Source of the DNA: Methanocellales archaeon
GTDB lineage: Archaea > Halobacteriota > UBA148
Assembly: GCA_030019435.1 (NCBI GenBank)
Contig: JASEEV010000007.1
Coordinates: forward strand, 1 to 55,226
Length of the DNA: 55,226 bases
Direction: 5' to 3'
The position numbers were made by a program, and so were the translations under genes. The stretch's first letter is position 1; each line of letters begins with the position of its first letter. Below the pieces are notes generated by a model. The model did not search any database and was not told the DNA's origin. It saw only the letters and a list, made by a program, of their open reading frames with translations. This document shows, in pieces, positions 4,632 through 54,358 of this stretch.

Positions 4632-5129
4632 CTATTCCAGCTTTTCCTTCCAATCTCCTTTGATATATACGGAAGCTGCCATGGCAGCCATAGCGCCCTC
4701 TCCAACCGCGGTGACTATCTGCATCCCACCACAGGTGCAGTCTCCAGCTGCAAACACGCCCTCTATGTTTGTCCTCTGATGGTCGTCAACCTTTATACAA
4801 CCCCTCTCATCCAGCTCTATGCCTACCTTTTCCATTATCTGTGTCAGTGGAACTGCGCCCAAAGAGATGAAGATGCCATCGATGGGGATTTCTCGCTCCT
4901 CGCCACCATCAAATTCGATGATCTTTATTGCCTTGACCAGGGTATCTCCTTCAATTGCTTCAACGCTTGCGTTTAAAATCTGGACATTCGTCCTCTCTAC
5001 AAGTCTTTTTCTCACTATCTCTGCGATCTCCAACTCTTTTTCGTTCGAAATCAGTATCACTCTGCTCGCAAGGTCTGCTAGTAGTAGGGCTTCTCCCGCC
5101 GCCTCATCTCCAGATCCCACCACCGCCAC
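4632..5129 (-). pseudogene. C-terminal fragment of thioredoxin reductase-like flavoprotein, truncated by IS200-like insertion
   Basis: Begins inside the NADPH-binding motif AVVGSGDEAAGEAL, ends with FAD motif GVFAAGDCTCGGMQIVTAVGEGAMAA; N-terminal FAD domain absent. Confidence 0.8.
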
Positions 5130-5547
5130 GATTTTGTCTGCGTGATGTCTGAGCTGCTTGACCTCTAACGTAGTTGGTTGTTGTCTCTAGGTCTGTGTCT
5201 CCAATGCTCCTATAGAATTTGCCAGGGCTCCAGAGATGTCCTTTCGGATATCTGAGCCTATAATCTGGCTTCCTTCTGAAAAGCTCATATGCAGAGGCAC
5301 CCTTCAAAAGGTTGAATGCCTTTGAGATACTCATCGTTGTGGGAATTTCAACGATGACATGGATGTGATCTGGCATCACGCTGAGTTCTGATATGGATAT
5401 GTTGTGTCTCTCTGCTACCTTTCTGAGCGTTTCCTCGCAAAGCTTTTTATTCTCCTCCCTCCTAAACATCTTATATCGGTACTTTGGACACCACTCAAAG
5501 TGGTAGATACTTTGTCCAATTCGATGGCTTCCGCTAACTAAATCCAT
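5104..5547 (-). mobile_element. tnpA: IS200/IS605 TnpA Y1 transposase
   Basis: Y1 family: FEWCPKYRYKMF, MPDHIHVIVEIP (HUH), candidate catalytic Tyr in TNYVRGQ; C-terminal tail probably host read-through. Confidence 0.9.
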
Positions 5548-5558
5548 AGTAGACCTCC

Positions 5559-5581
5559 TGGGCAGGCATACTGCCTGCCCA
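5559..5581. repeat. perfect hairpin upstream of tnpA (IS end)
   Basis: TGGGCAGGCA-TAC-TGCCTGCCCA, 10-bp stem. Confidence 0.8.
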
Positions 5582-5619
5582 ATGGAGTATCACTTTTTAG
5601 CAAAAATAGTTTAATGTGC

Positions 5620-7222: not shown

Positions 7223-7503
7223 TGCGGGGGGCAGGATTTGAACCCGCGAACTCCTACGAGAATAGATCTTGAGTCTATCGCCTCCAGTCCAACCGAGGAG
7301 AAACTACGTTTCTCCTTCGAACCTCTTTCTCTCCAAAGGGGCTCCGCCCCCTCTTGACACCCCAAGGTTCAAAGGGACAGAAACCTTTAGGTTTCTGAAC
7401 CCAGGAAATCTTCGATTTCCGTGGATGGAATCCCTTGCTGGGTTTCGAAAGGGTGAAGCCCTTCGCGAAGAAAGGTTGTTTGACCAGACTTGGCAACCCC
7501 CGC
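7223..7503 (-). tRNA. tRNA-Leu(CAA), interrupted in the D-loop (insertion ~7283-7479)
   Basis: GCGGGGG...CCCCCGC acceptor, ATAGA-CTCAAGA-TCTAT anticodon arm, class II variable arm, T-arm GCGGGTTCAAATCCTGC; D-arm halves GCCAAGTCTGGTCAA and GGCG ~196 nt apart. Confidence 0.85.
7283..7479 (-). other. hairpin-rich intron/insertion in tRNA-Leu
   Basis: Perfect hairpins at 7296-7316, 7338-7350, 7378-7397, 7404-7420; three with 3-nt loops that read C-GNA-G on the minus strand. Confidence 0.75.
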
Positions 7504-7931: not shown

Positions 7932-8068
7932 AGCCGTCGGAGGGATTTGAACCCTCGACCTGCTGATCTCTTGCCAAGGAACCTACGGTTCCCTTGACCC
8001 TCCCCAAGGGGTTTAGAAGGAAGTCCTTCGGTTACGAGTCAGCCGCTCTACCACTAAGCCACGACGGC
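7932..8068 (-). tRNA. tRNA-Thr(CGT) with intron (7968-8032) at canonical 37/38 position
   Basis: GCCGTCG/CGACGGC acceptor, GCTGA-CTCGTA^...^A-TCAGC anticodon arm, T-arm GAGGGTTCAAATCCCTC. Confidence 0.92.
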
Positions 8069-51661: not shown

Positions 51662-51850
51662 ATCGAAGGGCTCCACCCTGCTCCATTTCGAAGGAAATGC
51701 GAGCTGTTTCATTCCCCAAAGGAAATGCGAACACTCACATTTCTCCGAAATGTGAGCACCCACAGATCTTCGATCTGTGGTTTTTCAAAACCCAGGGTTC
51801 AAAGGGACGAATTCAGGATGCGAAGCATCCGCTTCGCCATTCAAGTCCCT
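51662..51850. repeat. intergenic hairpin array
   Basis: ATTTC-GAAG-GAAAT, CACATTTC-TCC-GAAATGTG, CACAGATC-TTC-GATCTGTG, GGATGC-GAA-GCATCC nested in AAGGGAC...GTCCCTT; shares CCCA(A/G)GGTTCAAAGGGAC with the tRNA-Leu insertion. Confidence 0.8.
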
Positions 51851-51856
51851 TGGAGC

Positions 51857-54358
51857 TCATAGGATGATGTCGATGTCGAGCTCCTCTGCTAACTCCTTGT
51901 ATCGATTTCTTATCGTGACTTCAGTCACGCCTGCTACATCTGCCACTTCTCTTTGCGTCCTTCTCTCTCCACAAAGAATGGATGCGATGTAGATTGCGGC
52001 TGCTGCAACCCCAGTAGGACCTCTTCCAGAGGTCAGCTCTTTCTCCCCAGCCTGTCGTAGGATCTCGACTGCCTTAGATTGAACGTCCCCCTTCAAATTT
52101 AGACCTGAGGCAAATCTTGGAACATAATCTATGGGCGAGGTTGGTATGAGTTTAAGTCCAAGCTCCCTAGATACAAATCTGTACGTGCGCCCGATCTCCT
52201 TTCTGCCAACTCGTGAGAACTCTGAGATCTCGTCCAATGTCCTGGGCACAGAACACTGTCTACAGGCTGCATATAGTGCGGCTGCTGCAACGCCTTCGAT
52301 ACTGCGTCCCCTGATCAAATTTTGGTCCACCGCCTTCCTATAAACAACTGCAGCCGCCTCCCTGACATCTCTGGAAAGTCCCAATGTAGATGCGAGCCTA
52401 TCTAATTCTGATAATGCAAACGCTAAGTTACGTTCGGTTGCGTTGCTTACTCTGATTCTACGCTGCCATTTTCTCAGTCTATACAACTGAGCTCTGCTCC
52501 TCGATGATAGCGATTTACCATATGAATCTCTGTTTCGCCAGTCGATCATCGTTGACAATCCTTTGTCATGTATGGTGTTGTGCAAAAATATGCCGCCCAG
52601 ACCGCCAACGAAGTTCTCGTAGTTTGGCACTGACAGATCATATGCGTATTCACTTGAGGCTTTGACATTTTTCTTGCTCGTTATTCTCAGGAACACGAGT
52701 GGTGCTGTTGCGAGCTTCAGTAGCTTCTCGTCGTTGAAATCTTCTGCGATTGATATCGCAAGGTCTCTGTTGATTCGCTTTCTCTCTCTATGTTTCCACA
52801 CGTGTTTGTATTCCTGCGGTGCGGGTATTAGGTCTTCTAGTGCGCCTTTTCTTCGTCTTTTGTCCACTCTCTCAATGAATCCTAGCTCTGCTGCACTATC
52901 TGGATTTGTTATACGTGTGCCTGTGCTGTGTGACTGATCTAATTCTTGCCCTGAGGGGAGTATATGTCTTGGAATTTCTTGTTCATTGTAGTTCGCGTGT
53001 ATGCCCAGTTGGAGGTACAGCATTAGTATGTCGTTGCTCAAGTCTTTGTTCACTGATACTGTTGAAACTTGCACGACTGGTCTACTGCCGTTTTCATTTT
53101 TGAGATATACGCTACCGTCTCCGTTCACATACCCTTGCAAGAAGGCTAGTTTCATATCGTTTGATAGTGAGTAGATGAATTTTGGCACCCTTTTCTCATG
53201 AGCATTCATACCCAACTTAAATACGTCAGCAAACAATATTGCTAGGAGTTTACTGGGCACCTCGATCTGCACCGCTGATTCCTTTTGGTAAACACTTGGG
53301 TTTAGCCCAAATATGTTTCTCAGTAGGCGTTGAACTTCCTCGATGTACCCTCTCTCGTCCTTACTGAATGAGAAGTTAACATTGTGATACGTGCCCTTCA
53401 CGCTGCCCTCGCTAGCGTAGTACCCAAGAAGCTTGCACAGCTCTCCAGTGATTTCCAGCTTGATCGGCAACTCGTTTGGGCTGCTCCGAATTCCAATTCT
53501 TGCGTCACTAGGAATGCCATCAAGCATGGAGGCTATGCGTAGTGGAAGCGAGTTGCGCCTTTTCCAGTCTTTCGGTACTCTCTTTGGGGTGCCACCGTTT
53601 AGTTGTATCGCATCCAATTGAGCAAATACCTCGTCACCTATGTTTCGTACGTAAAGCCGACCATAGAGATCCTCATCGGACAGTTTTGAGAACTCATCCA
53701 GTAGGTCGATCGCTGATTTTCCACTCCCCGCAGTAGGAATGTAGTTCGGAGCAACGACGAAGTCACCCTCTCTTAGCTGAGCCACAGTGGTTGGCACAAC
53801 CTCATTGTCATGAACTGTGAAAACACTGTGCGCACCTGTGACTCGGACTTTTCGTTTGCCTTCAAGCACCAGCTCGTAGAGGTCTTCATGAAGCTTGTGC
53901 CTCGCCACATACTGAATCGGCTTAAAACTTACTTTGTAGTCCTCGTCGAATGCTACCGCATTGTATCCTTCGATCGGAACAAACTCCACTTCGCCATCAA
54001 TCTCACTGGCGATCATGTGTTTATCAACAAACTCCCCAATCTTCACTATTTCAACTTCACCACTCTTCTCATTCTCAATCACTATTGGTTCGTCGTAGTC
54101 AACACTATAGGTCATCGGTGCTCCAACTCTAGAACGCTTCATTCGTTGATCGTGATCGAAGGCTCGCCATTCAGGTCCCATGTCTATAAAATCTTCCTCG
54201 ATGACAAGACCGCATTCATCACAGACTAGCTCGGCTCTCTCATAATCATGTACAAGTTGGGTGCTTCCGCATTCTGGGCATTCTGTTTTGGTCTCCTCAT
54301 ATTCGCCCAGACCCTCACGTTCTTTTTTTATTTCCTTTGCCTTTTTGACGTCTTCCAT
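51857..54358 (-). CDS. tfb: transcription initiation factor TFB containing an intein
   Basis: Zn ribbon [39 protein letters not shown]|intein|[24 protein letters not shown]; cyclin repeats. Confidence 0.97.
52577..54106 (-). mobile_element. intein with LAGLIDADG homing endonuclease (510 aa)
   Basis: Begins [20 protein letters not shown] block [13 protein letters not shown] and [13 protein letters not shown] dodecapeptides, ends [14 protein letters not shown]. Confidence 0.95.

Follow-up and report, generated by a model that had tools for sequence, protein, structure and literature searches.

The tRNA-Leu(CAA) gene of an uncultured archaeon, represented by a metagenome-assembled genome, carries an insertion filled with perfect hairpins that share one type of loop, which raises the question of whether such folds are maintained for the RNA or reflect a process acting on the DNA. 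The locus lies within a window of 55,226 nucleotides, the whole stretch of DNA analysed here. Three perfect stems with 3-nt loops had been described in the first-pass annotation, and all of them were recovered on the forward strand: a 9-bp hairpin, AGGAGAAAC-TAC-GTTTCTCCT (7296-7316), a 5-bp hairpin, GGGGC-TCC-GCCCC (7338-7350), and a 7-bp hairpin, GGAAATC-TTC-GATTTCC (7404-7420). Read on the minus (tRNA) strand, the triloops are GTA, GGA and GAA, each with a C-G closing pair, in agreement with the C-GNA-G pattern reported for them; a fourth hairpin, CAGAAACC-TTTA-GGTTTCTG (7378-7397), is present in the same insertion. The most probable reading, to which we assign a probability of roughly 80%, is that each of these hairpins is a copy of a short palindromic DNA module (~20-40 bp) and that such modules have multiplied and stacked in this lineage, with spliced introns as an inferred refuge and a process on single-stranded DNA (ssDNA) as their likely origin.

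The placement of the hairpins in a tRNA-Leu insertion proved correct: they occupy a BHB-type intron in the D-loop of a minus-strand gene (7503-7224; Table 1). Removal of 7479-7284 leaves a tRNA with a body matching that of tRNA-Leu genes lacking an intron elsewhere in the phylum. The junction reads GGUC-[AA|A]-CAACC ... GGUUG-GACU-[GG|A]-GGC, in which exon GGUC pairs with intron GACU as a 4-bp central helix between the 3-nt bulges AA|A and GG|A, CAACC/GGUUG forms the intron helix, and the outer helix is non-contiguous, being interrupted by the D-loop. The features by which archaeal BHB tRNA introns are recognised, a normal tRNA upon removal and a BHB-type junction, are thus both present, here with a non-contiguous outer helix. 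Introns at the same position were found in six other genomes (G001, G005, G006, G008, G009 and G010), with short forms of ~30-56 nt. Given these shorter introns in other genomes of the order and the BHB-type junction, the insertion is best described, as far as the sequence goes, as an ordinary type of archaeal intron that has been made larger, with splicing predicted. The fold of the pre-tRNA-Leu is much better than those of shuffled sequences (z -5.1). ARAGORN did not recognise any tRNA in the window, an outcome probably due to the length of the introns or to their location outside the anticodon loop, and a custom finder was used instead. The only similar DNA found on plasmids was one tRNA-size match at the 3' exon, outside the insert. 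As a separate observation, each of the ten genomes of the order has its splicing endonuclease in a single gene bearing two PF01974 domains (G000:C29:1595-2392 in this genome), although the D-loop introns present are of a kind more commonly associated with other endonuclease types (PMC4033280).

Table 1. Features of the tRNA-Leu(CAA) locus and related elements in the window.
Feature	Position	Strand	Basis or remark
IS200-type Y1 (HUH) transposase, HIH and Tyr motifs intact; candidate carrier	5104..5547	-	Motif reading
Hairpin beside the Y1 gene, CTCC-[AT]-TGGGCAGGCA-GTA-TGCCTGCCCA-GGAG	5555..5587	-	Plan as in modules (bulge, long perfect stem, GTA triloop); sequence differs
tRNA-Leu(CAA) exon 2, 60 nt	7224..7283	-	Joined with exon 1 gives 84-nt mature form
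tRNA-Leu(CAA) intron, 196 nt, D-loop	7284..7479	-	BHB-like junction; introns of relatives
tRNA-Leu(CAA) exon 1, 24 nt	7480..7503	-	tRNA reconstruction
Module D, CGA-[a]-GGAGAAAC-GTA-GTTTCTCC-TCG, one-base bulge, perfect stem 7296-7316	7293..7327	-	Recurring copies
Module C, GGGGC-GGA-GCCCC hairpin (7338-7350)	7331..7363	-	Recurring copies
Module B, CCA-[c]-GGAAATC-GAA-GATTTCC-TGG hairpin and CAGAAACC-TAAA-GGTTTCTG hairpin	7375..7424	-	Recurring copies
Module A, 5' part of intron (CAACCTTTCTTCGCGAAGGGCTTCACCCTTTCGAAACCC)	7440..7478	-	Recurring copies
tRNA-Thr(CGT) with intron	7932..8068	-	Related hairpin CAA-[g]-GGAACC-GTA-GGTTCC-TTG, perfect stem 7978-7992
Array E, intergenic copy with three GNA/TNC hairpins; also in tRNA introns	51678..51832	+	Repeat search

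The shared loop grammar had been taken to indicate selection for the fold, serving either RNA processing or ssDNA-based mobility, and the grammar itself turned out to extend across the genome. Hairpins with C-GNA-G or C-TNC-G loops were counted over 1.34 Mb of the 1.42-Mb genome and compared with 20 shuffles preserving dinucleotides only. Rather than matching random expectation, the class is in strong excess, with 124 hairpins against 31.4 in shuffles at stems of at least 5 bp, 60 against 2.6 (shuffle maximum 5) at least 7 bp, 35 against 1.0 at least 8 bp, and 17 against 0.2 at least 9 bp. Since triloop hairpins of all kinds number 191 against 100 expected, this class makes up most of the excess. 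Its distribution is highly uneven: tRNA genes account for 0.46% of bases yet hold 24 of the 60 hairpins with stems of at least 7 bp, and most of the 23 tRNA genes (among 42 found) that exceed 95 nt, reaching up to 357 nt, carry such hairpins. In G001, a genome of the same family (genus g2), the loop class stands at background (3 vs. 1.6 at stems of at least 6 bp, in 390 kb) although its tRNAs have introns too, which implies that the loop rule is dispensable for tRNA processing.

Several features go beyond the first-pass annotation, namely a single-base bulge, modular repeats, and copies outside tRNA genes. The hairpins follow a common plan with differing sequences, consisting of a basal stem of ~3 bp, one unpaired base, a perfect stem, and the triloop. 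The one-base bulge ~3 bp from the stem foot occurs in 36 of the 124 hairpins, compared with ~4.2 when flanks are random. When copies were picked by their 5' flank only, a procedure that avoids selecting for pairing, 9 of 11 contained a perfect stem of 7-8 bp, as against ~1% of random places. A MAFFT alignment of module D mixed differing stem lengths, and pair counts from it were not used. Paired base changes among copies include TCGA/TCG versus TCAA/TTG at the stem foot (CGA/TCG, CAA/TTG) and GGAG/CTCC versus GGAA/TTCC, while inner stems vary yet still pair, as in GGAGAAAC/GTTTCTCC, GGAAAAAC/GTTTTTCC, and GGAACC/GGTTCC. On the transcribed strand of tRNA genes, 20 of 28 loops read GNA and 8 read TNC, and one hairpin occurs with its loop both ways round (GGAGAAAC-GTA-GTTTCTCC and GGAGAAAC-TAC-GTTTCTCC) in copies that otherwise match. 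The presence of both orientations argues against a function specific to the RNA strand and for a DNA-level or symmetric process. Assignment to the stable C(GNA)G RNA triloop class is not supported, as GNA is not on the transcribed strand in all copies.

The tRNA-Leu intron is pieced together from modules A, B, C and D, each recurring in the genome at ~75-100% identity and with relative orientations that vary between copies. Module D is the most repeated, with 42 matches when both orientations of the palindrome are counted, and near-full copies of module B occur at ~10 sites, most of them more than 90% identical. Outside tRNA genes, modules were found within the gene for 23S rRNA, as in-frame inserts in DUF504-like, FecE-like ABC ATPase and MBF1-like genes, at the 3' ends of two others (one CBS-domain-like, the other ferredoxin-like), and in intergenic DNA; the names of these protein genes were read off translations. 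Module C is shared among the 23S rRNA, FecE, MBF1, and tRNA introns. Across 294 genomes of the phylum, the C-D element was detected in this order only, apart from one weak match, and a search of viral contigs found no module D pattern.

Other repeats and neighbouring genes were also recorded. A second dispersed repeat, module F, consists of a C-GAA-G hairpin beside AGTTGTAAC...GTTTCAAC and occurs at L097 8376, L099 6468, L112 5011, L125 3009, L144 9618 and 13926, and L145 7347, where one copy has a small upstream ORF on one side and a PIN-like ORF on the other (names read off translations). At L075 4360-4603, module D copies are duplicated along with a coding-start stretch (CCTTTGGTATCATAGCAACCGC) whose open frame resembles phosphopantoate-beta-alanine ligase, the stretch being masked in part, and at L070 15767-16017 a module A + D unit is directly duplicated upstream of a small ORF, the two copies being separated by masked bases. 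The window also contains, at 51857-54358, a transcription factor B (TFIIB) gene with an intein bearing a LAGLIDADG homing endonuclease domain. MCR alpha was not found in four genomes of the order.

The mobility option of the first-pass annotation gains from these dispersed copies and, in addition, from empty and filled sites in relatives. The 75-nt element of the 23S rRNA gene, which is made up of modules C and D in a relative orientation opposite to that in tRNA-Leu (C inverted), and whose boundary is ambiguous by a few bases, is absent from G001, where the two sides are 97% and 96% identical, and likewise from G005, G006, G008 and G009. The DUF504 gene of this genome has 28-30 additional residues in frame; G006, G008, G009 and G010 lack the insertion, and a remnant, short and divergent, is seen in G001, G003 and G004. 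The FecE and MBF1 insertions lie in linkers, at which relatives have older or divergent linkers. The FecE-like ABC gene (L065 15071-16363) is 90-91% identical to those of G008 and G009, members of another family, and only 76-78% identical to those of its own family; G008 and G009 share its hairpin element, and this pattern of identities suggests that the gene was transferred laterally together with the element. Around tRNA-Leu, G008 and G009 share 95.7% identity over 2.3 kb, and 44 positions of the alignment are gapped. The 44-nt insertion in the G009 tRNA-Leu gene, absent in G008, consists of two hairpins, CCACTTAC-TGC-GTAAGTGG and GTGCCTGC-GAA-GCAGGCAC, both of which obey the loop rule with stems unrelated to the earlier ones. 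A 90-nt intron stretch containing this pair is 100% identical between the tRNA-Leu and tRNA-Met of G009, and both corresponding introns of G008 lack the pair, so that two processes can be told apart, hairpin insertion and the copying of introns from one tRNA gene to another. Weighing against the mobility reading, the comparisons defined neither a transposition event nor an end sequence or a rule for target sites.

Among the mechanisms that might generate such a pattern, replication- or repair-linked strand switching at C-GNA-G mini-hairpins, which would copy one arm to the other and keep stems perfect while intron recombination spreads them, is rated at somewhat below even odds. It would account for different stems obeying one loop rule, for loops inverted in otherwise matching copies (as expected from arm-to-arm switching), for orthologous hairpins in G001 that are imperfect or rebuilt (GGAGAAAT-GCA-ATTTCTCC), and for identical introns in different tRNAs, but by itself it does not explain how modules entered protein genes and the 23S rRNA gene, since relatives offer no template at those sites. 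Mobilisation of the hairpins by the genome's own IS200-type Y1 transposase acting in trans, which would make this an archaeal system of the REPtron or PATE kind, is possible, though on balance unlikely. The Y1 gene, intact and with its HIH and Tyr motifs, lies 1.7 kb from the tRNA-Leu hairpins, and its own hairpin has the same plan as the modules, with an outer stem, a bulge in the 5' arm, a long perfect stem and a GTA triloop; a second Y1 copy, in C14, is broken, and its hairpin corresponds to the first with one pair compensated. G009, which has the recent hairpin insertion, encodes a full-length Y1, and G001, with GNA hairpins at background, has only a broken Y1 match with two stops. Against this, none of the 60 hairpins has a GTAG, GTGG or CGTC foot, the nearest module is more than 1 kb from the Y1 gene (5104-5547), module stem sequences are unlike those of the transposon, and no Y1 was detected in G006 though that genome has module D. 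The likeness between the Y1 end hairpin and the modules, as judged from sequence, is a resemblance and not proof, and leaves the Y1 gene as a candidate carrier only.

Explanations acting through RNA fare less well. Selection of GNA triloops for the processing or stability of pre-tRNA introns, which was the RNA side of the earlier proposal, might be read from the predominance of GNA on the transcribed strand (20/28) and from the position of module D, which in several introns is close to the 3' splice site. It is nevertheless improbable, because the RNA carries TNC in 8 of the 28 loops, loop-inverted copies exist, the class is at background in G001, where orthologous introns are mostly short (~30-80 nt) and free of these hairpins, and the same modules occur in 23S rRNA, ORFs, and intergenic DNA. 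RtcB circularises introns in archaea, and circular intron RNA could in principle reinsert by reverse splicing and then be copied to DNA, in keeping with the sharing of introns by different tRNAs and with the module in the 23S rRNA gene. However, the 23S copy is an internal part of the intron (C + D, with C inverted) rather than the whole, and the modules in protein genes have no splice motifs, so that this route is considered the least probable of all. Overall, the spread of palindromic DNA elements is supported over selection for an RNA-level GNA triloop.

The favoured reading, multiplication of palindromic DNA modules, may be outlined as follows. Each module comprises a perfect stem of 5-10 bp, a C-GNA-G or C-TNC-G triloop and often a one-base bulge ~3 bp from the foot, and copies are scattered through the genome as lineage-specific insertions for which relatives show empty sites. 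The first insertions were likely made by an ssDNA process reading folded hairpins, such as an IS200/IS605-like HUH transposase or a replication-linked relative; such a process would explain the loop and bulge rule together with unconserved stem sequence. Module arrays may then accumulate in tRNA introns because predicted BHB splicing cuts out whatever is inserted between the splice helices, making these introns a refuge; the copying of whole introns from one tRNA gene to another also contributes to the spread there. In 23S rRNA and proteins, modules would presumably persist only in tolerant loops and in frame.

Known systems offer partial parallels. Rickettsia palindromic elements (RPE) are short dispersed palindromic repeats of a small genome, found in frame in protein genes (PMC10969869), and the present family resembles them in its dispersed palindromic repeats and its in-frame inserts with empty orthologues, clear for DUF504. 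It differs in being archaeal, in its 20-40 bp modules with a C-GNA-G loop and one-base bulge and no common peptide shown, and in its hosts, which add rRNA and tRNA introns, the latter (predicted to be spliced) being the main site. The REP/TnpA-REP system (REPtron) involves high-copy short hairpins, some with stem irregularity (PMC8266576). Short many-copy hairpins and a Y1 HUH transposase in the genome are common ground, whereas the modules are not only extragenic; REP/REPtron was rejected on the GTAG/GTGG 5' foot (0/60) and on the lack of clustering at the Y1 gene. The PATEs of Haloquadratum walsbyi are transposase-free palindromic elements with near-terminal palindromes like those of IS605 transposons (PMC3119063). 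They share with the modules an archaeal host and the lack of a transposase, but single hairpins or arrays without sequence match to the Y1 hairpin are found here; PATE was set aside since the Y1-associated hairpin sequence is present at two Y1 loci only, the plan being alike and the sequence not. Mitochondrial double-hairpin or repetitive hairpin-forming elements are likewise small, structurally divergent, and subject to lineage-specific bursts (PMC2800124), in contrast to which the present hairpins are chromosomal, archaeal, and located in tRNA introns and in frame in ORFs. In Thermoproteales, tRNA intron transposition has placed similar introns in different tRNAs and at non-canonical positions, as is also seen here (PMC4033280, citing Fujishima 2010). 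The same source gives under 100 nt as the usual intron length, whereas growth by hairpin inserts here takes introns well over 100 nt, and the modules leave the tRNA context. By analogy, the family may be regarded as an archaeal variant of dispersed palindromic elements, an analogue of RPE, REP, and mitochondrial hairpin elements.

A more far-reaching proposal, which we advance tentatively and rate at about one chance in three, is that these modules constitute a new class of archaeal ssDNA hairpin elements that would be set by structure, hide in spliced tRNA introns, and seed rRNA and in-frame protein inserts. The structure that would define the class, put forward with the same caution, is a C-GNA-G loop, a one-base bulge, and a perfect but freely varying stem. 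To our knowledge, Rickettsia is the main source of palindromic elements lying in frame in protein genes, and the hairpin elements described so far come mostly from bacteria and mitochondria. In a search of open-licence papers, no earlier description was found for archaeal tRNA introns, 23S rRNA, or ORFs. The finding joins two questions, one about the growth and movement of tRNA introns in archaea, the other about the means by which small palindromes spread when they carry no gene of their own; sister genomes with filled and empty sites provide a test ground for both.
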